From: Capitulum mitella
Taxonomy: Eukaryota > Arthropoda > Thecostraca > Pollicipedomorpha > Pollicipedidae
NCBI GenBank assembly: GCA_030062745.1
Contig: CP099844.1
Coordinates: forward strand, 23,250,596 to 23,314,595
DNA length: 64,000 nucleotides
Reading direction: 5' to 3'
The notes under the pieces were generated by a model. It did not search any database. It was not told where the DNA came from and worked only from the letters and a program-made list of their open reading frames with translations. How positions within the stretch are numbered: the first letter of the stretch is position 1; each line of letters begins with the position of its first letter. Below are positions 747 to 63,021 of this stretch, in pieces. A program made the position numbers and the translations under genes.

Positions 747-1589
747 TCAACCCATCACGGTCGGATCACGCGCGCAGGCGTGAATCTTCTCGTTGAACTG
801 CGCCTCGAGCTTCTCGAGCTGGTCCTCCATCTCGGCGATTTTGACGCGCGCCAGGTCGGCGTCGGGCGGCAACTCGCCGTACTGCTGCAGCTTGGTCTGC
901 AGCTGCTCCAGCGCGCCGCGCTTCTGCGTCAGGAACTCGAACCGGCGCAGCACCGCGTCGTGCGTCAGCTCGTCGGCGAAGCCGCGCTGCTCCAGCAGGC
1001 CCTCGTGCTTGCGCACCAGGTTGCGGTACTCGTGCATCTTCTCGGCGAGGAAGCGCGACTTGGCGAGCTTCTGGTCGACGACGGCGCGGTCGGCGCCGCG
1101 CTGGGCGGCTGCCTCCTGCAGCTGGCGCTGCAGCGTCGCCTCCTGCACCAGCAGCTGCTTGACGGCGGCCGACTGGCGGCGCAGCGCGGCCTCCTCGCGC
1201 TCCAGCTGCGCCGACAGCGCGTCCACGGCGCGCGCCAGCCGGGCGTGCTCCAGCAGGCAGCCGGCCACACAGGGGCGCTCCAGGCCGAGCAGCTGGGCGG
1301 CCCGCGCCAGGGCGGCCAGCGTGCGCTGCGAGTCGGACGCCAGGTGCAGCGGCTCCAGGCCCAGGTGGCGCTGCGCCGCCGCCAGCCGCTGCTGCTCGGC
1401 GGCGTACGCGGCGCGCCGCCGCCGCAGGTGTGCCGTCAGCTGGCGTGCCCGCTCGTCGTTGGTCTGCACGGTCTGCTGCACACCCTGCAGCAGCGACAGC
1501 GTGCGCTTGTCCACCTCGTAGGCAGGCACTTCGGCCGTGCCTAGGGTCTCCATCAGCCACTGGTTCGACTTGACGATCTCCTTGTTCAT
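747..1589 (-). CDS. HAUS1: HAUS augmin-like complex subunit 1 (intronless ORF)
   Basis: Predicted 280-residue coiled-coil protein. HAUS1 is a subunit of augmin (HAUS), which binds spindle microtubules and recruits gamma-tubulin ring complex to nucleate branch microtubules in mitosis. The assignment rests on remembered similarity to vertebrate HAUS1 (278 aa). At the N-terminus, a segment reading VPAYEVDKRT (about residues 21-30) matches the vertebrate IPQYEVNPRT. At the C-terminus, LARVKIAEMEDQLEKLEAQF matches the vertebrate LAQVKIEEAKRELDSIEAEL. Between them lie long heptad-like helices rich in Ala, Arg, Gln and Leu. Length and end-to-end alignment indicate a complete gene without introns. 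The start is the ATG at 1589-1587, in the context GCAAAATGA with A at -3. This ATG overlaps the stop codon of the upstream prefoldin-like ORF, so both probably share one mRNA. The antisense ORFs over the same interval are GC-driven shadows. Confidence 0.85.
   Translation of the reverse strand: MNKEIVKSNQWLMETLGTAEVPAYEVDKRTLSLLQGVQQTVQTNDERARQLTAHLRRRRAAYAAEQQRLAAAQRHLGLEPLHLASDSQRTLAALARAAQLLGLERPCVAGCLLEHARLARAVDALSAQLEREEAALRRQSAAVKQLLVQEATLQRQLQEAAAQRGADRAVVDQKLAKSRFLAEKMHEYRNLVRKHEGLLEQRGFADELTHDAVLRRFEFLTQKRGALEQLQTKLQQYGELPPDADLARVKIAEMEDQLEKLEAQFNEKIHACARDPTVMG
1586..1589 (-). promoter_or_regulatory. ATGA stop/start overlap joining the ASDURF-like and HAUS1 ORFs
   Basis: Read on the minus strand, the upstream ORF ends GCA AAA TGA and the HAUS1 ORF begins ATG AAC at the same place, so four bases are shared. 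ATGA overlaps are typical of termination-reinitiation coupling. The sequence CAAAATG is also a strong arthropod-style start context, whereas the upstream ATG (3452) has C at -3. Another short ATG-led frame inside exon 3 would hinder simple leaky scanning. Confidence 0.7.
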
Positions 1590-2021
1590 TTTGCGTGCGG
1601 TGAGGCGCCGAGTTCCGAAAGCTGCTTCTTGACCGAGGAACGAACTTCCGGCAATCGGCTCAAGAAGAACACATGGCTGTTTTGCTGCTGGACATACACT
1701 CTCTGCGGAAATTCAGGAAAGACGACACACAAGGTTACGTCGATAGAACTTTGTCTCAAGACATAACTTCAGCCATACATTCAACAAAGTGTGCGGAGAT
1801 ATCAAATTCATCGTGCATCTCGAACAAGACGTAAAGATCTGTCCTGGATTCCATAAATGCCATTGTACATCTAACCATGTACAAGCTGGTAACAAACTTA
1901 CACAGATAGGCGATAGTTGCAAACAGGTTTCAGTGTCCTTCCCTTATAACCTGATCATCTAAACGTGTCTGATTATGAAAACAGACAACCTCCTTTATGA
2001 GAACTTGGATTTACACATGTT

Positions 2022-2063
<42 letters not shown>

Positions 2064-3452
2064 GTATATAAACATATATATCAACATGAGCTCAACGTTT
2101 CAGCCATATGCCATCTTCAGTTTACCATGGACTGAAATTCCTCCCGGCATGAAGGTTGCCTATTTTCATAATCATGTCCATGGCCCGGGAGCCTATAACG
2201 ACGATTTTTGACTTTATTAGGCTGTACCTTTGTCTGTCCCCAACCTCCTGTCCCGACGGGCATAAAAATGTCAAAGGCGTGGTACACGCCTTTGACATTT
2301 GACTGTCCAAAGAAACACATCAAACAATATCAAAATAAGACGGGGTGTAGAATAATCATCATCACTACTCGATTTATGCTACAATGTTTCCCAAATCATG
2401 CTTGAGAGCGACAAAAATACTTACAGCACCTTTCTTCAAACTACCTAATTCAGCGTCCAAAACCTGAAGCTCTTGAACCTGAAAACAGAAGCATATTAGC
2501 GCGCAGGTCTTCTCCATCCGTATACTGCTATCTGGGATGAGAAACCCCAATGTATCTGATTGGGAGAGTCTCGCTTCTTTTTGCTTGATTCGAATGGCTG
2601 CTGGGGTGATGTCAGGGAACAGTGTCCGCGCTAAGCAGGGGCTATTTCCTGGGCCCCGATCGCACAGACCACTTCCACGTCACGACTCTTTTTTGTGGCG
2701 AACGCTGAACGTGTCCTTAACGGCATGAAATGACCGTGTGGTGGTCTGGAAGACCCATTTTGGCCAGTTGCCACCCGATCCAGGGGCAAGATATCGAGCG
2801 CCGGGGCGACTCGTCCACGCCTTGTTCGGACTGGACGATCAGCGCTCTACCGACAGAGCTACCAGTCAAGGTCTCTTCAAAAGTTGAATTCTTTCTCGAT
2901 TTCGACACCGTAGCATTGAATCTGGGCGCAATGAATCTGGGCAAATCTCATTTCTACTGACATTTCTCTGCACGAAAGCTTTGCTTCATTCGTAGGGGGA
3001 AACCACTACCATAGAACACACAATACTTACATCTTAAACCCTGGCAAGTTTCTACTGCCTAATGTGGGACAGGTTTGCATCTTTTTCCACTTAATAATCT
3101 AGCTTTACCAGACTTGCATGCACGGCGTCACTGACATTTATTATGCACTGTTACCACGACGCTTATATTGTATCGGCATAACAAGTCTAGTGACCGAAAG
3201 GTCCGTAAAGAAAACCTTGTTCCAGTCCCGACAAAAGCGACACTCTGCCGTATACCTGCGACAATCGGCGTTTAAGATATGACATGCAATGTTTGAAAAA
3301 AAACGGCAGAAGACGGCGTCGATTAATACGCCAATGGCCGCCTCGACATGAGTAAGAATTATCCACTCCACATTCAAGAGAAGAAGCGCAATTCGGCTTA
3401 CCTTAGCTGTGTTGTCGGGCTTCTTCACGTCTTGCCCAGAAGTCTTCTTCAT
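1586..3452 (-). CDS. ASDURF-like prefoldin subunit, three exons, upstream cistron of HAUS1
   Basis: Coding exons 3452-3402, 2478-2425 and 1702-1586 join in phase 0 with good splice sites (AAG|GTAAGC, TTTTCAG|, GCT|GTAAGT, CCGCAG|). They encode 73 residues beginning MKKTSGQDVKK. The core reads LGSLKKGA, then RVYVQQQNSHVFFLS, and ends GASPHAK before TGA. This closely resembles human ASDURF (96 aa), whose core reads [23 protein letters not shown]. ASDURF is the beta-prefoldin-like subunit of the PAQosome (R2TP/prefoldin-like) chaperone complex, and in vertebrates it is translated from an upstream ORF of the ASNSD1 mRNA. Here the TGA (1588-1586) overlaps the HAUS1 ATG (1589-1587), and no ASNSD1 is visible. 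Helix, hairpin (the conserved Y-QQQN-FF strand region) and helix fit a small prefoldin. The exon chain is inferred by eye, but the alignment runs without gaps across both junctions. Gene identity is likely; orthology is not proven. Confidence 0.78.
2026..2062. repeat. (TA)n microsatellite
   Basis: An uninterrupted TA tract lies in the second intron (1703-2424) of the ASDURF-like gene. Confidence 0.9.
2266..2300. repeat. Perfect hairpin, 16-bp arms with 3-base loop
   Basis: Arms 2266-2281 and 2285-2300 are exact reverse complements (AAATGTCAAAGGCGTG) separated by GTA. It sits in intron 2 of the ASDURF-like gene. It may be the centre of a foldback element or a cruciform-forming site. No flanking target duplication was identified. 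Confidence 0.75.
2793..2872 (-). mobile_element. tRNA-like (SINE-type) sequence
   Basis: On the minus strand, a box A-like motif TAGCTCTGTCGG (2861-2850) is followed by GTAGAGC, forming a D-arm with stem GCTC/GAGC. About 34 bases further a box B-like motif GGACGAGTCGCC (2816-2805) appears. No complete cloverleaf is evident, so this is a tRNA-derived SINE head or tRNA pseudogene rather than a functional tRNA. It lies in intron 1 of the ASDURF-like gene. Confidence 0.4.
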
Positions 3453-6400
3453 GAGGCCAGTAAATGTCCACTACCTAGGCACTGAGGACAGAAGGGTATT
3501 CCGATGGACAAACATAGGAGTATCAAAAACCAAATAACAAATATTAATTACGATCACATATTATGATGAAAGGAATTAGTTTATGGTCACATCAAACGCG
3601 GTACCAAATATGGCGTTTGATCACATACCTACCTTTACTGCCACTCCTCATTATTTAAATGAGATTATTCATTTAAATTATTTAAATAGTTCAGTTTGTT
3701 AAAAAAGGCTTCGGGGGGGGGGGGGGCGGACGGAGGGCGAAGACATCTCTTTTTCTTTGACATATAACTCCGTAACCAAACTAAATCGCGTCCTTAATAT
3801 TTCTATATCTCTCGGTACATCAATAGTGTGCATTTCAATACAAACATGTTGTCAAGGCTACCCGAAGTGACGTCAAAATGCCGTCGTCCAGATGATGACA
3901 TTTTACGACTAGCGGAGAACTGCCATTGCGACAAGGCCGACAGTATGCAACACGTATTACAAAGTCATGAAAGGTCAGTGCAGCACCAAAGACCTCACCC
4001 AAGATGATCATGCATCAAATTAATCTAATTTCCAAATAAATGCCAAATTATGTAATAAACCCATTGTGACAAGCATTTTACGATTTCCTAGTGCAGAAAC
4101 GAGCATTTGACGAAATTGCCATTCTATATCGCTGCATGCAGTTTAATGTGCAATATACGGCAAACCTAAAACTAACACGCACACACATACGTATATGTAA
4201 CACATAACATATAATTCACCAACAAGTACCGCATGACCTAGCCAGACCTGTCACATCGTTTTTCTCTCAGGCATACGCGCATCGGTTTCTCGTGCATATA
4301 TCTATATGCATTTGACCTTTAGGATGTATGCAATCTCTGATTTGTGCGACAAAAGGCATCCCTAAATAATCAAAGACTAACATATTTCGTAGCCTGTAGC
4401 TTAATGCAAAAATATTTAGGGGTGCACCGGATAGCGGTTTTTACTATCCAACCGGATATCGGATATACCGGGAAATCCTGCTGGGTAACCGGATTATGCA
4501 ATATGAATCGAAATGGAAACACAATTCAGTGCTAGTTAAAGCTAGGGAAACCCTTGGAAAAGGGCAACACTTAAACCCCGACACAATGACCACTCGAAGC
4601 TTCGTAATGTGGAGGACAAAAATGATGTTCAAGTGGATGGGGGATGTTTCCCACTGCTTTCCAGGCATGCCTGCCAAATATTTTCATACATAAAGAAACG
4701 TGTCAATCCTCCAAAATGGCAGTTAGTTGGTAGGCAGGGAAGAAACTGAATATAGGTACTTATGAATGACATGTTTATTAACACCCCCTGGATGTTGCTT
4801 TCCGAAAAATGCTGCATATTAGTAAGTTCTGACTTGGGTCTCATTCATGGTGCTATATTCCACCTTTTCCTCAAAAAGGTCAGTTCTACTCCTTTGATTT
4901 TTTTTAAGTTTCCATATGACTGTGGCCTGGGTGAACAGAAGAACATTTGTTGTAACAAAGTTTTGAAATGCATGAGCACACATAAACTTCCTTTACAAAT
5001 CACCATTGAACAGGTCATTTGGATTCATTGAGGACTGTTCCTCTGAATAAACTAAAGCACACAAATGAGGGAATTTTATTTGCCAGCCATTGCAAGACTA
5101 ATTAATGGAAAGGATTATGACTCATACTAGTCATTACTGCATACTGCAACAGCATTGCAATTATTTGCAAAATTTATCATTCATCTAAATGAGTTCTTTC
5201 CCAAAATGTGTGTGATGTTTCTAAAGCAGTCTGTGCTACATATCCTTTTGCACCAAGCAACTACATCTCTGAACTGTACCTGACACATCAGTGAATCTGA
5301 GCTTCAGTCAGTAAGCATGATAAAACAGCATTTTATATGAACAGGAAATCTGGATTGTTTACTAGTTTACCACCCTTAAATAGAACAACCATAATAAGGG
5401 CATCCGGCCAGATCATAAAATCCAGTGGATAATGTGTGGTATATCCCACAGACAGTAAAAAATCATGCCTTCACAAACACAATATTTGGCCAGACTATCC
5501 AGCAAGGTTACATATCCGGTCATGGCCACATAATTTTGAGATCCAAAAATGTGATGTGCTAGGGATTACACTACAGATGACCATCAATTATCATTTGAAT
5601 CAGTAAATTGGTCCATTGGTTTCAGAGCTTCAGAGTTGGGGCATCTGATGCTTCCCCCACCCACCCCAGCATGTGCAAGGTGGGCCATACCCCAGTGTGT
5701 GCTGGACTAAGCTACAAAATGTAGACAACATCCACAGATTATAACATTCAGGGAGCATGTTTTTCTTACTTTATGATTCACATCTGTACTACACAAAAAC
5801 AGAATCTGACAACATAAACTGTGCCATGGTTGTTTGCATGCAATAATCATGACAGACTACTAGTCAGAGCTATAGTTCCTGCTTCTCAGTGTGGGGAAAT
5901 TGTCTAAACTATGCTGCAAGCCCCCAGTGGGTCACCAGGTGGCAAAACTGTGGCACCTGTTGGCAAGGGAGGGAGGTGACACAACCATGTGGCTAGCCAG
6001 GTCCAGGCCACCTTGTCTTAAGTCTGATGCTCCAACAACTTGGCCAGGGATGCTGGGAATGGGAAGGAGAACCAAGGGCAGCTGGCTACCCTCTCCTGAA
6101 TTTGGGGTCCAATGACAATGCATGGAAAGAAGATTCTGATTCTGTGCCACAAATTAAAGGCTCCATCTTTTCTGGTGCCATCAATGAGTGGGCAAAGCAA
6201 GCACAGTTAATTTGCCAGCCTTCAGTCAGTGAGCCTTTTTGGCACTCACACACACAGGAAAAAACAGCCAAATTTCTGTTTACTTATAATTTTTTTCCTA
6301 AAACATAACAAATGCACAGAAGGGGCTTGCCCTCAAGGCTGGGAAAGTTACCATTACCTGGCCCAATGGAAATGCATGGAAAGGATGCACTAGAAATGCC

Positions 6401-8249
6401 ATTTTCCCTAGCTGCCATGAGAACATGGTGCCACCACTGGATGTGGTCTCACAGCAAAGGGCAATGGAAAAAGGTTGCAGGTTTCCACGACTACCGACAT
6501 TTTGTTATATCAAAGACCACTGAAACCAAAACAATTTTAGGGCTAATCATCACTGACTGAAATACGTTCCTGACACCACTTGAGGCCTTCTGTTCCTTGC
6601 TCTTAGCTTGCTATGTGTACAAGACAATTTGATATTTTGATATGTCGTACATAGTCGTCAGAACACTCGATATAAGCTACGCAAACTACCTACTTGTTTT
6701 CACTCACTGACAGGCACATCTTACGCAAGTCATACATCTTTTTGCTCTTATTGTGTCCGATTTTCCGGGCAAGTCAGTTTACACAAAATGTCTGCGAGTC
6801 TGAATAGGTACTTCGTATTGCCCACTCACCGTTTACCCAACGTAGTTCTTCACAGGACACTCACAACCCACGGACACCACCATGCAAACTCCCAGCGCGG
6901 AGGCTTTCAAATATTTCGGCTCCTTCTTGCATTGTATTTAACGCGTCTTATTTGTATTTGGTATTCAGAGATGGCATGTAATGGTCAAATGATATGTACT
7001 TTTTGACTCCCAAATGGAAGATTTGCAATTGGATATGCATCGGAGGGCCAGTAATTCGTGTTTCTTTCATCATATGTCATGGGGTCTTCATGGTCCTCTT
7101 TACGTTTTCCAAAGAAGACATATAATGGGAATTTATGATAAAAATGTTGGATATCCTAGACGGGATACTTATTCTGTCATGCAGTTTCAGTCCATTTCTA
7201 ATGCAATTCGTATCAAAGAAGGCGAATGTTTTGGAGCATAAGGGAAACGAACACTGGCGAAGTACGTGAGGCGGAGTGGGAAGGGAACAGGGACATGGGG
7301 CTTACGCCTTTTTGTTTTTTGGTGGTGAGCTTCCATGCCGTTGTAACTTTCATTTCCGACCGAGATCTTGCGCTTGGCAATAAACATTAATGGGACCAAT
7401 TGGCACTGTGTACAGACAAGCTGTTTCCTGCCGGGATGAATTATGTCTTTGTTTTCCATGACTCATTGGTTCATCATTGGTTCGAGCAAATCCAAATTGA
7501 GAGCTAACCTGACAACCACTTGAAATATTGCTTTGTTAACATGCACCATCCAAGTCAGGGCTTTTGTCTGCTTGACTGTCCAGAGTTCAAGCTGCATCGA
7601 TGTGACTTGACTTGCACTACTTTTTGAAAGTTTTCTTGTAGAGTTCAAGCTGCAGTACAGATGATAAAAACATCAAAGAGGAAGCTCTAATGGTTGCCTT
7701 AAGGAATATGTGTGCAACACAGTAGATATGCTAAGAATGACTGTACTAGTCGTGTGTGTTTAAAAAGAACATTCTACCTTAACAGATCTTCTGAACTGAG
7801 ATAGCCAAATCATAAACTGTAGTCCTAGAAGGTAGTATGTAGCATGTATTATGTTTCAAAATTACATGTACAGAGATGTTTCAGAAGGAATCCCCCATGG
7901 CTTTCCCATGTGTTATTGCTGTGATGGCCTTTCCCATGTGTCATATTTGTTTTTGTCCTATTGACAGTTGTTATGTGACCTGGTGAGTGGGTGCAGTTTT
8001 GGTGCAGTGATTGCCATATTGGCAGATGACTGCAGAATACAGGTTTTAGCAAGCTGCAGCTGTTGAAGCCTCAGGTCATTTCCAGCAGAATGAGTGCTGT
8101 AAATGCTAGTGCCATTTTCCAGACCAAGTCAGTCCTGGAAAGTAAAAAGTTACATAAGGTGCAACATTCTGTTGGAGCCATAAAATGACTTATTTGTGTT
8201 ATGCCCTTGTTTCAGGTTGTCTTTGGCTGGTGATCAGCTGTAATTTGAC
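3453..8249. other. Intergenic region between head-to-head ASDURF-HAUS1 and WDFY2
   Basis: No coding exon was recognised. The promoter of the minus-strand dicistron and the 5' UTR exons of WDFY2 must lie in or near it; a likely WDFY2 5' UTR acceptor is TTGTTTCAG at about 8207-8215. The part from about 4.6 to 6.55 kb is nearly free of CG dinucleotides. At about 4419-4500 a GGGGTGCACCGGATA-like sequence with several CCGGATA motifs recalls hAT-type transposon ends, and related CCGG motifs recur near 5400-5525. A run of about 15 G lies at 3713-3726. Confidence 0.45.
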
Positions 8250-11200
8250 ATGGCTGCAGAAATCAAGCCAGCTGTGGGTGGCACAAGGACAACTGGTGAA
8301 AGGAAGCTCTCCCTGTTGGCCAAAGTTGAGGGCTTCAGTGATGAAGTTCATGATGCTGTCTTCATTGATGGAGAAGATGGGATAATCACTGCATCTGATG
8401 ATAAGTATGTGCCATTTTAAGTTGATCAGTAATGACCAGGGTTGTCAGTTTTATTCATTGAAATGTGTAGGATGTTGAAAAATAACCCATGCAGTTGGAC
8501 ATTCCTGGCCCAAAAATACCTAGTTCCTTTGACTTTTATCTATATCCCTGACACCTGACTGGAAAAGTCTGTCCATCTTGGAAATGACTTATAAGCTCCC
8601 TTCTTTTTTGCTGGCAGTTTTTGTTTATTGACTAGTCATTGTAACACAGACCCCAAATGTTTCAACCTATGGGTGATATTCTTGCAGGTTTGCCTTGGAA
8701 ACACATAAACTAAGAAGTTATGTGGCCATTACCCTCAGTGAAGACACATAGTTAAGGCTGACATCAGCAGTACTCAATTTCAGATCGGTGCGTGTTTGGC
8801 TCCGCCGCGACACAGGCCAGTTCTGGCCCAGCGTGTGCCACTACATGCCATCGCCGACCACCTGTCTGTTCTACCATGCGGCCTCCCACCGGCTGTTTGT
8901 CGGTCTGGAGAATGGCACAGTTTGCGTGAGTTCCACCAAACCAGACCTGTCTTGCTGGAGTTGTGGCCCTCTTAATGTGTTAGGGTGTATGGACATGCTG
9001 TTGGAAAACATAGATGTCAGTTAGGTCCCTGTGGGGACTAGGAAATGTGGTGTAACTCAATTAATTGATATATTTGGGCCTTGTATGTTCTGTCAGGCTG
9101 CTGCACAAACCATTTTTATGCTTTTGAGCCAAAGTACCATGTCTGCGATGGCATCATAAAGTGCCAAAAAACATTACACCTGTCAAGATGTGACAAAGCA
9201 CCCTAAGACTCTCACATTGGAGCATCACATGGTCATTGGGATGTCAAATCACTTTGCCAGTTGGTAGATCCATAAACATAGGTGCACTCATAGAATATCT
9301 GTAAGTGGCCTCTCCCACCCCACTGGATGGTTACTGAAGCTGTTTGGCTGCTGGCTGGCACAGTTTGCTTCATCCTACTACTGTGGCTGTCTACTGGCTA
9401 TCTGGAGAGTCTGGAGCTAGAGCATTATTCACCCTGCTGTCCAGCTGGCCCGCGGCTGGCTAGCGGGGTGCGCTCCGTTGCGCCGGGCGGCGGTCGGCTG
9501 ACGCCCCGGTCTCTGTTGGTGCAGGAGTTCCACCTGGCGACGGACTACAACCGGCTGTCGCCGGTGCGCGACTATCTGGCGCACCAGGCGCGCGTCACCG
9601 CCTGCCGCCTGTGCGCCGCCAGCGAGTGGGTGCTCAGCGCCAGCCGCGACAAGGCCTTCCAGTACCACTGCACGGAGACGGGCCGCCGGCTGGGCGGTCA
9701 CCAGACCGACGCCTGGTGCACCGCGCTGGAGTATCCTGGCGGACAGGGCGGGCCGAAACACGGCCCGAGACGCCCCGTCGCTCGAGACGGTGTCGGGTGG
9801 CTGGGTCGGTGTGTGTCCTCTGGGCAGTATTGTTGAGCCAGCTTTGTGGGTTGGTGACGTCGCAGTGGAGTTCGTGAGAACAGTTGTGCGGGTTGGATGG
9901 CAGTGAAGTGGGGTCGTGTTTTGTGCCAGTGTGGCGTGTTTTTCCCCTTAACCAGCTATCAGATACGACGATACGTCGCGGCACGTCTTCGTTGGCGACT
10001 ACTCGGGCTTGATTTCCATGCTGAAGCTGGACGACTCGGGCGCATCACTCATCACCAAGCTGAACGGACACGCCGGCAGTATTGGGTGAGACGACCAAAA
10101 TGTTTTGATCCATTTTGGGCAAGCTTGCCAGGTGCGGCGGACAGTCAGGTTAGTTGTGTCGTTCATTGATACTTGATATCATGGCCGACGTAGGCTTCGT
10201 GTTGGAATGGGGACAGGCAACCTTTCAGAGTGATCGGGCAGATATGGGCGTGAGATGAACGCCGGTTCTGTCACTTGGTGCGTTGTTCGAGCAATACCTT
10301 TCTCCGCTGTCCGCAAGCCGCCGAACCAGGGCTTTGCATCGTGCCCTAACGACAGGCATGGAGGAAACAAGTGCGATCAGAATGCTATGTTATAATGGTT
10401 TCACTCGTGTCATTCTACCGCAGGGCATTGGCGTGGGACGCCCAGCGCCAGTGGCTGTTTTCGGGAAGCTTCGACCAGAACATAATCGTCTGGGACATCG
10501 GAGGACGCCAGGGGACGGCCTACGAGCTCCAGGGCCACACGTGAGAGGTTTTGTCAGATTTTGATTGGACAGTTGCAGGTGTGACACAGGGCTGAAGTGT
10601 CACCTTTAGGTAGGCTGAGTCATTGGCGTCTCGCAAAACGCTACAGACTGTTTCCTTTGTTTGGAGTGGATGCTGTCCGTCGTTCCGTTTTTATGGGAAA
10701 TGCCTTTTCCAATGTTATTCTGCGTTTCCATGCGAGAGCGTTAACCAAAATGACCATTTGGACCGTAAGACGCATGCGCCATGCACACAGTACCCAAACA
10801 AACATCAGCATTTTTATTTGCGCCGATACAAAATACGTGCTTCAGAGGAGACGCGAAAGTTGTTTGGTGAGACACACCCGCCTGGCTCTGTTTGTGATTC
10901 TCACCGTCCGTCACCGCCACCTTGCAGTCGGCGATAAGCCGGTGGAGTTCCCGTCTTGTCTCGTCCCAGGAGGCCGAGCTGATCTTTGGCCTCGTTCGCG
11001 GCTCAGTGGACTCCGTTGGCTCCCTTTGCGCCACAGAAACGCGTCTTTTCTTGGTTGACTTTCGACCACACTGTCTCCGATAACGTACAGTCACGCCGGA
11101 AATCACGGAGAGGCTCCCGTCATTCTGACATCACAATCCTGCTCTGTCATAGGACAGTGTAGTAGGAACTTCAACCTCTGCGCTTGCAGTTGGCATATGA

Positions 11201-16535: not shown

Positions 16536-32698
<16,163 letters not shown>

Positions 32699-35328
32699 CT
32701 TGATCGTCCTCTTGACGCGCTTTTGGTCCGCCGCACCTCCGTCCGGTCCTTGACTCCAACCTAAGGCGGACACAGATGCTTTCACGAGTACGCACTGTAA
32801 CTTAGTACTCCCCGCTGCACAGAAAAAAGGTGGAGGGAGACACTACTGCAAACCAATGCACGCTAACTCGCACGACTACTTTCTTCTGAAGAAAGGATAT
32901 AAATGCGTCCGCAGAGGGCTGCTCCCATGCAGTCGTCAAGGTCCTTTGTGTTTAGTTGAAAGGCGGACGAAGACTTCACGAGTTACGTCGTTGCGACGCC
33001 CAGCGCTCAGACTCCTGTCTACCATAGCTCTTTTCGCGATCTATTTCGGTTTCCTGTGTCCGCAAAGCGTCAGCTGATAATTCTCTTAAAATTTGTTTTA
33101 ATTAAAACACAAATGTAAAATATCTGGAAAACGCATGCAAAAGGTCTCAGAGTCATAAACCTGCTACAGAATACTTTTAATGAGTTAAGAAATTTTTATT
33201 CAAATTTAGCAAAAGGATTAATAAATATGACGTACCCTTCCATGTTGCTCGTGCTAAAAATTGTATTTCATCGAGCTTTTCGACTTATCTATCACTGATA
33301 TGGACTTCAGATTTAAGACCAAAATGTATAATGCGATCTAAAATACATACCAATACCTTATACAACATTATGCAAAATTGGAATGCTATAAATGAAGTTT
33401 TCCCGCTCTTATCTCCTCGTTTGGGTAACATCACTATTGATTCTCCGTGCCGCAATTGTCGCATGCTAACAGACCAAGGGTTACATTGGAAGTGGTTTGA
33501 ATTTGGGCTGGAGAGTGTAAGTTGTGTTGGGTACGTTGTATTCGAGTGGGTTGGAAGGATTGATACGTACTGTGGCTATAAGATTCATTGGACTTGCTGA
33601 AAAGGGTGTTCATGACAAGGTTTTTCTCAGATTTGAAAAATGATTTGGGAAGCTTCACAAAAATTGTGGACATCATGTGATTGTTAAGTTGTACTTGCTT
33701 GTATTGCCGGTCCTAAGAAAATGCATAAGCCAGTTGATCCGATCCTGTCAGTCAAATATTCATCAAATGCAAATTGTGACCAGCAAGTTTCAGGTTTGCC
33801 TGCAATGCTTGTTTACTGCTGTGTGAAATGTGTGGTGGACAGTTACCTGCCTGTTGATTATTGTCAGCTTCAAATTTGGACTACATTAAGTAACATGGTA
33901 TGTTAAGATTGGGTTAAATAAAGCATATGTGGCTAAATTTGCTAGTTTGTTTCAGATATGGGTCAACAGTAAGATTCAGCCCGAGCGCTTACTTCCAGGG
34001 AAAATAATCGTAGTAGTGGTTGCATGGCGTTTCAAATGCAATATTGATAAGTATTACTTACGATTTCAGCCAGAAAAACCTGAAACACACATTATTTCCC
34101 CCGAAACAGGTTGCGTCGTCACTGGTGTGCTAACCGCCATACGCTCGCGTAGGGATTATTTAACGTTTCTGCGTTAAATAGTTTGTTTACGTGAGATCTC
34201 GACGCTGATTGGTCGTCGGTCGGACTCAAGGTGCAATCAAGAGTTATAAAAAAGTTTTGGGGGAATAACTAATGCGATATAAATTATCTTTGAAATAAAA
34301 AAGTTAACTGTTGTAAAACTAATAGTAATAATAATAGTAATAATAATAATAATAACAAAATATAATAACAAAAAAGTAAAAATATTACAAAGATGGCAAA
34401 GCGTAGTTGCAATTTGAAAAATACAAAAAAAACAAAAAGCAGTGAAATAAAATATCTGAAAAAATCACCGAACAAAACTGGAAAATATTAGGAAGTGAAA
34501 TAAAACAATACATAAAAATTTACCCTAGCCTAACATAGTAACCAAACCTAACCTAACCTAACCTAACCTAACCTAGCCTAGCCTGGCCTAACCTAACCTA
34601 ACCTAACCTAACCTAACATAACCTAACCTAACGTAGCCCCGCACAAAAAATCACGGAACAAAACTGGAAAATATTAGGAAGTGAAATAAAACAATAAATA
34701 AAAATTTACCCTAGCCTAACATGGTAACCTAACGTAACCTAACCTAACCTAACCTAACCTAACCTAGCCTAACCTAACCTAACCTAACCTAACCTAACCT
34801 GATGTAACCTAGCCCAGCACAACCCAACCTAGCAACCTAATCTAACGAGTATTAAATGTCATAATGTAATAGTACTGATATCAGACATCCCAACAATTGT
34901 CTAATACAATAATATAACGGCGTAATAATTCAGCAGTTCCTCCAAGTTCAGTTTGTGGCAACAGAATAGAATTTTCCTATATATGACGTCATTAATCGCT
35001 TGAAGATGCATGCAGGGTCTACACGTCCTTGATGTCAATAACCTTAACCTTGGCGGCACTACATTTTCCGCCGCGGAATAATGTTCTCCGCCAGTCGACT
35101 GCAGCACGGTATTACTGTGTGGTACGTTATCGTTACGATTTTGTTGTTATTGTTTAGAAAATCAAGTAGTGGAAAGTACGGTTAGAAACAGGATGATACA
35201 TTCTTTACATTGGTGGCAATTATACAAAGGGTTGTTTGCGACTTCGTCGGGCAGAAACTTACCTTTAGCCCAGATATGCATGACATAATACTCATTTACA
35301 CTAAATAATGTTAACATAACCACATGTA
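32699..35328. other. Intergenic region upstream of LAMP (minus) and STAG (plus)
   Basis: It holds the presumed LAMP promoter and perhaps 5' UTR exons of STAG; no coding exon was recognised. It includes an AT-rich TAA/TTA-rich stretch (about 34315-34400) and the telomere-like arrays listed separately. Confidence 0.5.
34465..34830. repeat. Tandem duplication of about 186 bp containing (CCTAA)n arrays
   Basis: The sequence TCAC(C/G)GAACAAAACTGG starts at 34465 and again at 34651. In both copies it continues through TTTACCCTAGCCTAACAT into a (CCTAA)n array (about 34541-34630 and 34725-34803). Each unit therefore has an AT-rich leader plus a telomere-type tract. The arrays carry scattered CCTAG and CGTAA variants, so they are old interstitial telomeric sequence rather than an active end. 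Confidence 0.85.
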
Positions 35329-37061
35329 CAGTACTGGACATATTATTATGGATTTTTGAGAAAATCATAAAATTTGCTTCATTTCATCAAAATATATGAC
35401 AAATACACATCAAATATCATTTTATTAGTATGAGAAATTATTATTGTCCTTCTAGTATTTTGTCTGTCCTCCCTTTGCTTTCAAAAGAGCTTCAATACGT
35501 TTTGGCATCCCTTCAATCAACTTTGAGCACATTTCCTTCAATCTGTCAGAATGAAACCACACTTCTATAAGACGTGCTATCAGCGTTGTTTTGCTTGTAA
35601 TTGGCACTTGATGTATTTCATTTTTGAGAACCTCCCATAGGTTCTCTATGGGATTCATATCAGGTGAGTTGCCTGGCCAGGAGAGCAATTTCACCTGATT
35701 TTCTCCACACCATGCCTTCACTGACTTGGCAGTATGACAGGGGGCCCCATCTTGCATGAAAATCCAGTCATCAGCAAGCTCCCAGTCCCTGATTTGAGGT
35801 AGGAGACGATTCTTTAGTACAGATATATACTTGCTGGCATTCATAGTTCCCTCCACTATGTGTAAGCGACTTGTACCGCTTGTAGAAATTGCTCCCCATA
35901 CCATGATTTTTTGAGGAAATTTCACAATTTTCCTCAGGCATTCAGGTTTGAACTCTTCTCCTGGACGTCGTCGTACAGTCTGAACCCTGTCATCCAGCAC
36001 ACATGGTGCTTTCATCAGAGAACACCACCTGAAATGAATTAATGATGCTGGCTTATCAAAAACTTTTTTAAGACATCAAGAATCCTACTCTACAGATTCA
36101 TGATTTTCATCAAAAAATTGCCTGTATAATTTTCTAGGCAAACAAATTTAAAAACAGATTACTTAGTGATAGAACTATTTCTAAAAATTAGTATGATCAG
36201 TATAGAATTCTGTAATAATGATTTACCTTAGACCAATCTGCTACAGTCCATTCTTTGTGCTCATTTGCCCATGACATTCTTGCTTCAATCATTTTCTGGG
36301 TAAGACGCGGCTTTTTCCTAGGCCTGTAGGCCTTCCGTCCACACTCCAGGAGTCTTCAACTAACGGTTTTCCGATGAACATGGAACCCTTCTTTTACAAG
36401 AATGCTTGAAATCTTTTGACAGGAAGCCCTTCTCATCTTCAATGACATATTTTTAATCTTGTGATCTGTTCTTGCACTTGTCTTCCTCTTCGGGCCACAT
36501 TTCCCAACTCTCCTGTTCTCCAATGGAATGTCTTTCTGTAAATTTTTCTTAACTAAACTAACAGTTTGGGTTGATACCTTCAATTCCTTGGCGATTTCTA
36601 CCTGTTTAAGAGTAGAATTTTCCAGTAAAGTCTTTATTTGACCTTTCTTACGGGGACTGAGGTCAGCCCTTTTACCCATCCTCACTAATTCATCAATAAA
36701 TCGATGGAAATGTGATTATTTTGCTATAATTTAACTTTTTTGTATCCAGAATGAATCGAAAGTGAAACTAGAATACCAGTCAAATTCAAGAGTGAACTCA
36801 GCTGGAAAGGTTCCAGCGCTGAAGTTGTGTTTTTAAAAATGGGCAAAAAATGACGTTCAGTCAAATTGAGTGGATGAGTGCTTAAAAGTGGGCTTTTATC
36901 AATACAAAGTACTCATTAGAAATACTGAATATGAAAATGCATTCAGAAATTGTTTATACATCGATATACCGATGCATCGAAATACCGATCAGCTCCTGCA
37001 CCCATGTTTCCAAGCAGTATAGCTTCTTTTACAAAAATCCATAATAATATGTCCAGTACTG
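35329..37061 (-). mobile_element. Tc1-family (DD34E) DNA transposon, full length with intact terminal repeats
   Basis: Terminal inverted repeats of 30 bp (35329-35358 and 37032-37061) are identical, begin CAGTACTGGACATATTATTA and are flanked by TA on each side (35327-35328, 37062-37063). This is the Tc1/mariner target duplication. The transposase lies on the minus strand. About 350 bp of non-coding DNA lies between its start and the right terminus. Identical termini suggest fairly recent movement even though the coding region is broken. Confidence 0.95.
35452..36685 (-). pseudogene. Tc1-like transposase, interrupted
   Basis: Two exons seem present: 36685-36227 and 36028-35452, separated by a 198-bp GT-AG intron. 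The N-terminal part (MRMGKRADLS..., 109 codons to 36356) holds the paired helix-turn-helix DNA-binding domain. The C-terminal part has the catalytic triad: D in VFSDES, D in FMQDGAPCHTA, and E in SPDMNPIENLWE, with 34 residues between the second D and the E (DD34E, Tc1 family). Two defects are visible: an in-frame TGA after HRKTVS, and a one-base frame change between the SDES motif and the following VLDDR segment (about 36000-36018). It is therefore probably inactive in cis. I describe the lesions only. Confidence 0.9.
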
Positions 37062-38902
37062 TAGTTCTGATGCTTTATGCATTGTGTATCTTGTGCATTT
37101 TGACATCACATTTCCTTGACATGCATTAGATCATGTAAGGCCCAAATGCCCCATGATATTCCCCATAATATACACTTTGCCCCCAAATGCTCCATTACAT
37201 TATGCCTCTAAAATATGGATTATATTCATTGTGTTCAAACTGACTGAGAATACAAACTGCAAGCCAATGTAGGTTTGGAAAAAACTCAGTAGCTTGTTGT
37301 TGATTGCTTGGGAATGCTTCCAAATTTTAAGTCACTGCTGGCCCATACCACTGTTTTGAAGAGTGCTAGGACACACCTCAGGAATGTGCAATGATAAACA
37401 GCATGGTTGCCTTAAAAGGATCTCATGACCACAAGACACTGGTGTGTACACTTGTGGCCTCAGGTCTGCTGAGCTGGTGCACCCCTGGCTAACACGTGGA
37501 GGTTTCCATGATGCGAGGGTTGGGATTTACTTTCATGTTAACTTAACAAGTACATCATGTTATTCCTGCAGACTTGAGTACAATTTTGTGACGTAAATTC
37601 AAGCACAGTGGTGCATGAATAATAGTTGTCATGGATCCTGATAAAAATAGGCTGCATCAATTGCAGACTTAATCACGGATGAAAATGCAACATGATTTGG
37701 TTAGAATAGATCCCATAAGTCAAGAAACCAACTTTACAAGACAATTATGGGGAAGTCAGAGGCTAATTTCAGGGGACAGTTACATTTAGTCAGTCAAGGA
37801 AAGGGTGAAAAATTGAACATCATACTTATGCTTAAGGAATGATCCATAGTATCAAGGTCTGATGCAGAACAGTATAAAATGATTGAACAATGAATTTGGT
37901 GCTATACATTTAAGCATACTTGACTGTATGCTTGTCATGATCATTTTAAGCAATAGCATTTAATGGAAGTGATTTGAATATTTTACACTTATATTTTATA
38001 GCCTAGCCTGATTCTTTTCCTAGGTCAGAACATATATTGAACTTCAGTAAAGTGCATTGCCATTGACCAGTGATGCAATATTTATTGGTAGCAGTGGTGC
38101 TCTGCAAAGAGGCCTCTTTTAAGAGACATTTAGGTTGTGGCATCAAATTGTATGGTTTCCTTACCATTTTCTGTCCTCATGCAGTGTTGGCAGTTAAAGG
38201 TAATCCAGTACCACTGATGATACTGGATTCTGTGATTCATTGAAATGATTTTCATTAATTTCATTGCTAAGATCATTAAGTATTGTGTGTTTGCTACATT
38301 CTTTGTGGGCACTAATCACCAGGCTACTGAACAGACATGGACATCATTTTATGTAAGATGGCAGCTATGTTCATTGTCTTCATGAGAAAACCACTAGACA
38401 GCAGCTAATGGCCAGGAAATAAGTTACTTCAGGAATTGTCCAACATATAGTACTCATGGTATAATTAATGGGAGCTGATGGAGGTCACTATATAGCTGTC
38501 TCATTCCAGATCTGATGCACCATCAGGTACATGTCATAACACATTGATGATTTAATCCTGCTTTTGGGTTTTGAGGAAGAGTGCTGTGAAGAAAAAAAGC
38601 CCAGCTACCAGAACAGCAAAGGTAACAATATTGCCATATGTGTCATGCAGAAATGCCTGTCTGCAGTCCAAAGATTTTCACTTATTTGATGTTGTTCCCA
38701 CCACTGCTTATGTCAATGGGTTTTATGGTATGCACTGCAGACTGCTGTCACACACAGTGGTGTATGAGTCTGCCTGCTGTGGGTGCCAGTCAGTGCGCCT
38801 CCCCTGAGTCTGCGCCGCCTGCGCTGGCGCCGCTGCGTCCTCTGACGGCCGCCGGCGGTCACCGCGCGGTCTGACCGGGCCGGGCCGCTCTCGCGCCGCC
38901 AG
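37062..38902. other. CpG-poor sequence upstream of STAG, with a possible upstream STAG exon
   Basis: Mostly no recognisable gene; CG is nearly absent from about 37.1 to 38.7 kb. One segment, about 38576-38621, is bounded by TTTTGAG and AAAG|GTAACA. It encodes a Lys-rich peptide (SAVKKKSPATRTAK) ending in phase 0, which is compatible with the STAG exon starting at 38903. Vertebrate STAG N-termini are also Lys/Arg-rich. It may be an additional N-terminal coding exon or chance. Confidence 0.35.

Positions 38903-63021
<24,119 letters not shown>

Follow-up and report, generated by a model that had tools for sequence, protein, structure and literature searches.

How might two unrelated, conserved proteins both be made where, within one exon, the stop codon of the first coding sequence overlaps the start codon of the second? 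The question is raised by a locus of the thecostracan Capitulum mitella, lying in a window of 64,000 nt (assembly GCA_030062745.1, contig CP099844.1, positions 23,250,596 to 23,314,595 of the forward strand; the coordinates used below count from the first nucleotide of this window). On its minus strand, a spliced open reading frame (ORF) for a protein of the ASDURF family ends in a TGA that shares the tetranucleotide ATGA (1586–1589) with the start codon of a complete HAUS1 ORF, the two codons lying in one exon and in different frames. In its anatomy, as read from the genomic sequence, the locus is a dicistronic gene, with two complete ORFs and no obvious exit between them, and it probably gives rise to one ASDURF-HAUS1 mRNA from which both proteins would be made by leaky scanning.

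Two conserved ORFs sharing four nucleotides

The ASDURF ORF is composed of three minus-strand exons joined at GT-AG junctions in phase 0, giving 73 codons followed by TGA. Coding exon 1 (3402–3452) contributes 17 codons from the ATG at 3452, coding exon 2 (2425–2478) contributes 18, and coding exon 3 with the TGA stop (1586–1702) continues into HAUS1. Intron 2, which is 722 nt long, holds a perfect inverted repeat (2266–2300) whose arms measure 16 nt and whose loop measures 3 nt. The identity of the peptide is established by its match to the Pfam profile PF21975 (ASDURF; ASNSD1-SEP), where it scores 39.3 bits and the cut-off is 27. Exons 2 and 3 together reach 33.0 bits and exon 3 alone 21.5, below the cut-off, and the profile search returned no match for exons 1 and 2 alone or for the reversed peptide. 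The match covers model positions 22–79 of 96 and leaves 7 residues of the peptide, so that the C-terminus is about 10 residues short; judged from the profile, this is length variation within the family and not a failed identity. Similarity to the beta-type prefoldins is weak, with 13.7 bits (E 0.062) against the Prefoldin_2 cut-off of 27.6, and a PDB sequence search with the peptide matched no prefoldin up to an E value of 10. That the ORF downstream of this ASDURF is HAUS1 and not ASNSD1 is a matter of genomic position and has no bearing on homology.

The first exon deserves separate consideration. Its donor (AAG/GTAAGC) scores 10.9 bits with a donor matrix, the highest among the eight candidate first exons in 2480–7000, the next reaching 7.9, and the first base of an in-frame TAG precedes the ATG by 21 nt. 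The proposal that homology proves this exon was rejected, as a shuffled exon 1 nearly equals the real score: six shuffles gave 34.4–38.9 bits against PF21975 and four other first exons 32.9–37.0, compared with 39.3 for the predicted peptide. Exon 1 rests, in other words, on its splice donor and on the upstream in-frame stop, and not specifically on homology. An unspliced alternative, which uses an in-frame ATG immediately upstream of exon 2 as its start, scores 33.5 bits and also passes the cut-off, so that ASDURF may have a different N-terminus.

The second ORF (747–1589, minus strand) consists of 280 codons in a single exon and matches PF25762 (HAUS1) with 151.4 bits, far above the cut-off of 40, over model positions 3–236 of 236. 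Among proteins of solved structure, HAUS1 chains are matched with E values down to 2.7e-18 (7sqk). The alignment with chain 8at2 begins at residue 4 in both proteins and therefore puts the start methionine at residue 1 of that chain; the predicted start is thus placed where HAUS1 proteins begin. The exon is so rich in GC that other frames stay open through most of it (forward, 769–1659; antisense, 678–1541 and 784–1518), and for this reason the length of the ORF alone is no proof of HAUS1; the proof is the profile match. The structure predicted for HAUS1 by AlphaFold has a mean predicted local distance difference test (pLDDT) of 64.4 and a predicted template modelling score (pTM) of 0.40, values too low to justify searching for similar folds, and the argument makes no use of it. 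Scans carried out with HAUS1 as the sole query found no relative in viral contigs (51 pattern matches) or in prokaryote contigs (260).

Both ORFs exceed curated profile cut-offs, which rules out a chance ORF or a mere effect of composition. A first-pass annotation, made from the sequence, had described a spliced 73-residue ORF strongly resembling ASDURF, whose TGA shares ATGA with the start of a complete HAUS1, and the profile search and the positions 1589–1586 in one exon bear it out on both points. Its further view that both proteins look full length holds for HAUS1 and has to be amended for ASDURF, given the short C-terminus; the profile search that it had called for places the peptide in the ASDURF family, while Prefoldin_2 stays below its threshold.

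The case for one mRNA and its proposed decoding

In a genome where genes are spaced by kilobases, the true stop codon of one gene would coincide in this exact way with the true start codon of its neighbour less than 1 time in 1000 by chance, at a rough, uncalculated estimate. A motif scan of the interval between the acceptor of exon 3 and the stop codon of HAUS1 detected no GTRAG donor and no match to any of eight poly(A) signal variants; with neither in the shared exon, transcripts containing the ASDURF stop should extend over all of the HAUS1 ORF. Furthermore, the intronless HAUS1 ORF leaves no exon junction in the 840 nt past the ASDURF stop, so that the usual trigger of nonsense-mediated decay would be absent, unless an intron is located in the 3′ untranslated region (UTR). 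The first-pass annotation had proposed a dicistronic unit in which one mRNA has to yield two proteins: the two gene identities and the dicistronic anatomy stand, and from the layout we infer the remainder, namely a shared transcript and the translation of both ORFs.

The contexts of the two start codons suggest how this translation could be achieved. The AUG of ASDURF is weakly placed (CTCaugA, with C at –3), and that of HAUS1 has a strong context (GCAAAaugA, with AAA directly before it); this combination of a weak start for the first ORF and a strong start for the second is the pattern of leaky scanning, as far as exon 1 is correctly assigned. Ribosomes initiating at the weak ASDURF AUG would synthesize ASDURF and stop at UGA, and those missing it would scan for about 215 nt and initiate at the strong HAUS1 AUG. 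Exon 3 also contains a mini-ORF in the third frame (1660–1695, minus strand), with ATGs at 1695 and 1674 corresponding to 11 and 4 codons, which ends 70 nt before the HAUS1 ATG; some ribosomes may first translate its 4-codon form and then reinitiate 70 nt onward.

Several observations weigh against a single mRNA decoded in this way. The argument from the weak start hinges on exon 1, whose homology support is non-specific, and further AUGs within the coding sequence of ASDURF show no depletion, 2 being observed against 2.1 expected from synonymous recoding at a GC content of third codon positions (GC3) of 0.58 (P of 2 or fewer, 0.65); one of these two internal AUGs (GCCatgT, 1674) has G at –3. 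The shared exon includes three weaker donor-like sites of the GTRWG type (1697, 1483, and 1270), and AATAAA is found within both ASDURF introns (3142 and 2218). Downstream of HAUS1, the sequence that remains as far as the edge of the window has none of the eight poly(A) signals and only minor ones (AAGAAA at 588 and AAAATA at 685). On the upstream side, six ATGs lie in 3453–3700, the nearest at 3515, and initiator motifs in 1590–4200 are not in excess (3 found, 3.3 expected). Moreover, the arrangement has been seen in one genome, and from DNA alone.

Some of these features have to be read also in the light of other explanations of the locus. It could comprise two transcription units, with HAUS1 under a promoter of its own, located in the second intron or third exon of ASDURF, and an ASDURF mRNA bearing HAUS1 as a long 3′ UTR. 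The 722 nt of intron 2 could house the start site, an initiator-like site (TCAGTC) being present at 2133, and the sharp contrast in GC3 (95% in HAUS1 vs 58% in ASDURF) points in the same direction; but the number of initiator-like sites just given is at the level of chance, the TATA-like matches at 2032–2080 belong to a (TA)n array, and the exact 4-nt overlap would be left unexplained. We consider this arrangement unlikely, though it deserves to be kept in view. The abrupt GC step at the junction, together with 280 codons devoid of introns, could also be read as the mark of a retrocopy, i.e., of a HAUS1 retroposed at the ASDURF stop while a working gene resides elsewhere; such an origin appears scarcely probable, for the ORF is intact and the 746 bp that follow its stop have no poly(A) tract, i.e., no stretch of at least 7 A's. 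An error of assembly would act at the same junction, where the overlap is placed inside AAAA: with 5 (or 2) A's in the true sequence, a single frame of 353 (or 352) codons would encode an ASDURF-HAUS1 fusion protein. That fusion would need neither a methionine at the family start position of HAUS1 nor a near-optimal context around it, and both are found, making an error of this kind very unlikely. The A-run also bears on a –1 frameshift, in which the lysyl-tRNA on AAA would slip back by one base in AAAA before UGA, so that some fusion protein would be produced as well. The sequence GCA AAA TGA would permit perfect re-pairing one base back and entry into the HAUS1 frame at its ATG, but the site is not a classical X XXY YYZ heptamer and is not known to have a precedent in animals, although no search aimed at one was made, and of the explanations weighed here this one has the slightest chance.

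Termination-reinitiation is different in kind, as it would operate on the same dicistronic mRNA, with ribosomes that end ASDURF restarting at ATGA as they do in the overlaps of calicivirus and influenza B. A stop-start overlap is indeed the geometry of such systems (PMC5972666, PMC3035654), and cellular candidates with such an overlap have been named as well, one of them a splice variant of mouse GAD and the other SLAMF1 of human (PMC5972666). According to the treatment of the subject in the latter source, however, reinitiation without specialised mRNA-ribosome interactions is appreciable only after short upstream ORFs, and an overlap of as little as 1 nt probably bars the ordinary route (PMC5972666); the first ORF here has 73 codons. 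The core motif (TGGGA/UGGGA) of a termination upstream ribosome-binding site (TURBS) is absent from the 222 nt leading to the stop-start site, and reinitiation of the TURBS type was rejected for want of it. Reinitiation at the overlap is, on the whole, a distinctly unlikely route. The first-pass annotation had left the choice between reinitiation and leaky scanning undecided: the succession of a weak and a strong AUG speaks for the latter, and the length of the first ORF and the missing TURBS core speak against the former, so that leaky scanning most likely offers the better fit.

The surrounding window

The remainder of the window contains features of other kinds. A Pfam search of neighbouring ORFs covered 10 of the 398 stop-to-stop ORFs of at least 70 aa, and three of the ten scored above the cut-off, all on the minus strand: a fragment of a DDE_3 transposase (35455–36075, 62.6 bits), an ORF matching a dehydrogenase dependent on flavin mononucleotide (FMN_dh; 40843–41427, 203.6 bits) and an ORF resembling ionotropic glutamate receptors (Lig_chan-Glu_bd; 52544–54304, 49.5 bits). 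Rfam and tRNA scans of the 64-kb window gave no matches. Stretches of about 1 to 2.4 kb are nearly free of CpG (4803–6488, 7751–8786, 30008–32411, and 37676–38796), the first of them being separated by about 1.4 kb from the start of ASDURF, on its upstream side, and the longest gap without any CpG measures 1438 nt. In these CpG-poor stretches the observed/expected ratio of CpG in 1-kb intervals falls to 0.03, that of TpG/CpA is about 1.6, and the intervening regions are near 1; the stretches look as if they were heavily methylated in the germline.

Repeats are also represented. TTAGG is the telomere unit of arthropods, and telomere-like repeats of this type, as (TAACC)n arrays, are located at 34459–34811 inside a 186-nt unit repeated 1.9 times; they are the feature of the window from which an arthropod origin was read. 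A dispersed repeat of about 1.1 kb occurs in two copies (43464–44711 and 61333–62451) that are 78–79% identical, and a tandem array at 24143–24720 is made of 34-nt units with a higher-order period of 170 nt and is open in more than one frame.

Known dicistronic genes and the place of ASDURF

Human ASDURF, which has 96 residues, a length equal to that of the PF21975 model, is about 23 residues longer than its counterpart in C. mitella. In human, ASDURF-ASNSD1 is listed among the bicistronic transcripts that had been characterised before (PMC13303939), and the PAQosome is reported to include ASDURF in its prefoldin-like module (PMC11009110, PMC9776223). The two loci are alike in that the same small prefoldin-like protein is placed upstream of an unrelated large ORF (PMC13303939, PMC9776223, PMC8894207); they differ in the partner, which is ASNSD1 in human and HAUS1 here. 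When the human ASDURF start was ablated, the downstream reporter was reported to increase 2.27-fold (PMC8894207). A table in one of these sources gives ASDURF as 40 aa (PMC9776223), and in Arabidopsis the protein is listed under a separate gene number, AT1G49245 (PMC10893143).

Leaky scanning on compact dicistronic mRNAs has been described in other organisms. In green-algal bicistronic mRNAs the contexts of the first ORF are weak, and changes of context are reported to act as leaky scanning predicts (PMC11892635); these loci share with ASDURF-HAUS1 the weak first start and the proposed passage of ribosomes to the second ORF, but potential start codons before the second ORF are underrepresented in them (PMC11892635), unlike the 2 observed vs 2.1 expected in C. 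mitella. In the fly, where 196 bicistronic genes are annotated, the starts of sloth1-sloth2 read ACACATG and then CAAAATG, reporters in S2R+ cells support leaky scanning, and impairing the first start led to more translation of the downstream ORF (PMC9681215). The likeness to the locus described here includes a small first ORF with a non-optimal start, an optimal second start after GCAAA and the near-abutting of the two ORFs, although these are separated by 5 nt in sloth1-sloth2 (PMC9681215) and overlap by 4 nt in C. mitella. Furthermore, the sloth peptides are similar and act together, whereas ASDURF and HAUS1 are unrelated.

As regards the fly counterparts of the genes discussed, we take CG13879 (wac) to be HAUS1 and CG17486 to be ASNSD1. 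A dipteran survey lists 44 upstream ORFs (uORFs) with conserved peptides and, together with the dicistronic genes of Drosophila, shows that insect mRNAs in which two ORFs are conserved form an established class, to which ASDURF-HAUS1 is comparable; neither CG13879 nor CG17486 is among the 44 rows of its Table 1 (PMC2276209). The pairing of ASDURF with HAUS1 was not found described in the open-access literature (subscription papers and preprints lay outside the search), wider searches gave none among the matches listed, and nothing in the open-access literature linked HAUS1 with a uORF, augmin with dicistronic genes or HAUS1 with arthropods. The first-pass annotation had known of no such description either. 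The gene is therefore of a known kind, i.e., dicistronic, and the pairing is new as far as could be found in that literature. The suggestion that ASDURF is the upstream cistron of different genes in different lineages stands on two cases, ASNSD1 in human and HAUS1 here, and that it is repeatedly carried in this position is an extrapolation from them. It may be, and we put this forward tentatively, that ASDURF behaves as an itinerant upstream cistron and has come to precede unrelated genes in separate lineages because a short ORF with a weak start would be tolerable, or even useful, as a translational brake.

For genome annotation the locus carries a warning, in that a standard gene model with one protein per gene would lose ASDURF here. 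ASDURF-HAUS1 poses a question of synteny that can be answered from any set of arthropod genomes, and it offers a simple reporter test in arthropod cells. If the proposed decoding is true, the supply of a subunit of an HSP90 co-chaperone would be tied inversely to that of a factor for the nucleation of spindle microtubules, and two or more unrelated genes would each have captured this conserved chaperone subunit as an upstream cistron, raising the question of whether a weakly started small ORF is a preferred way of making ASDURF.

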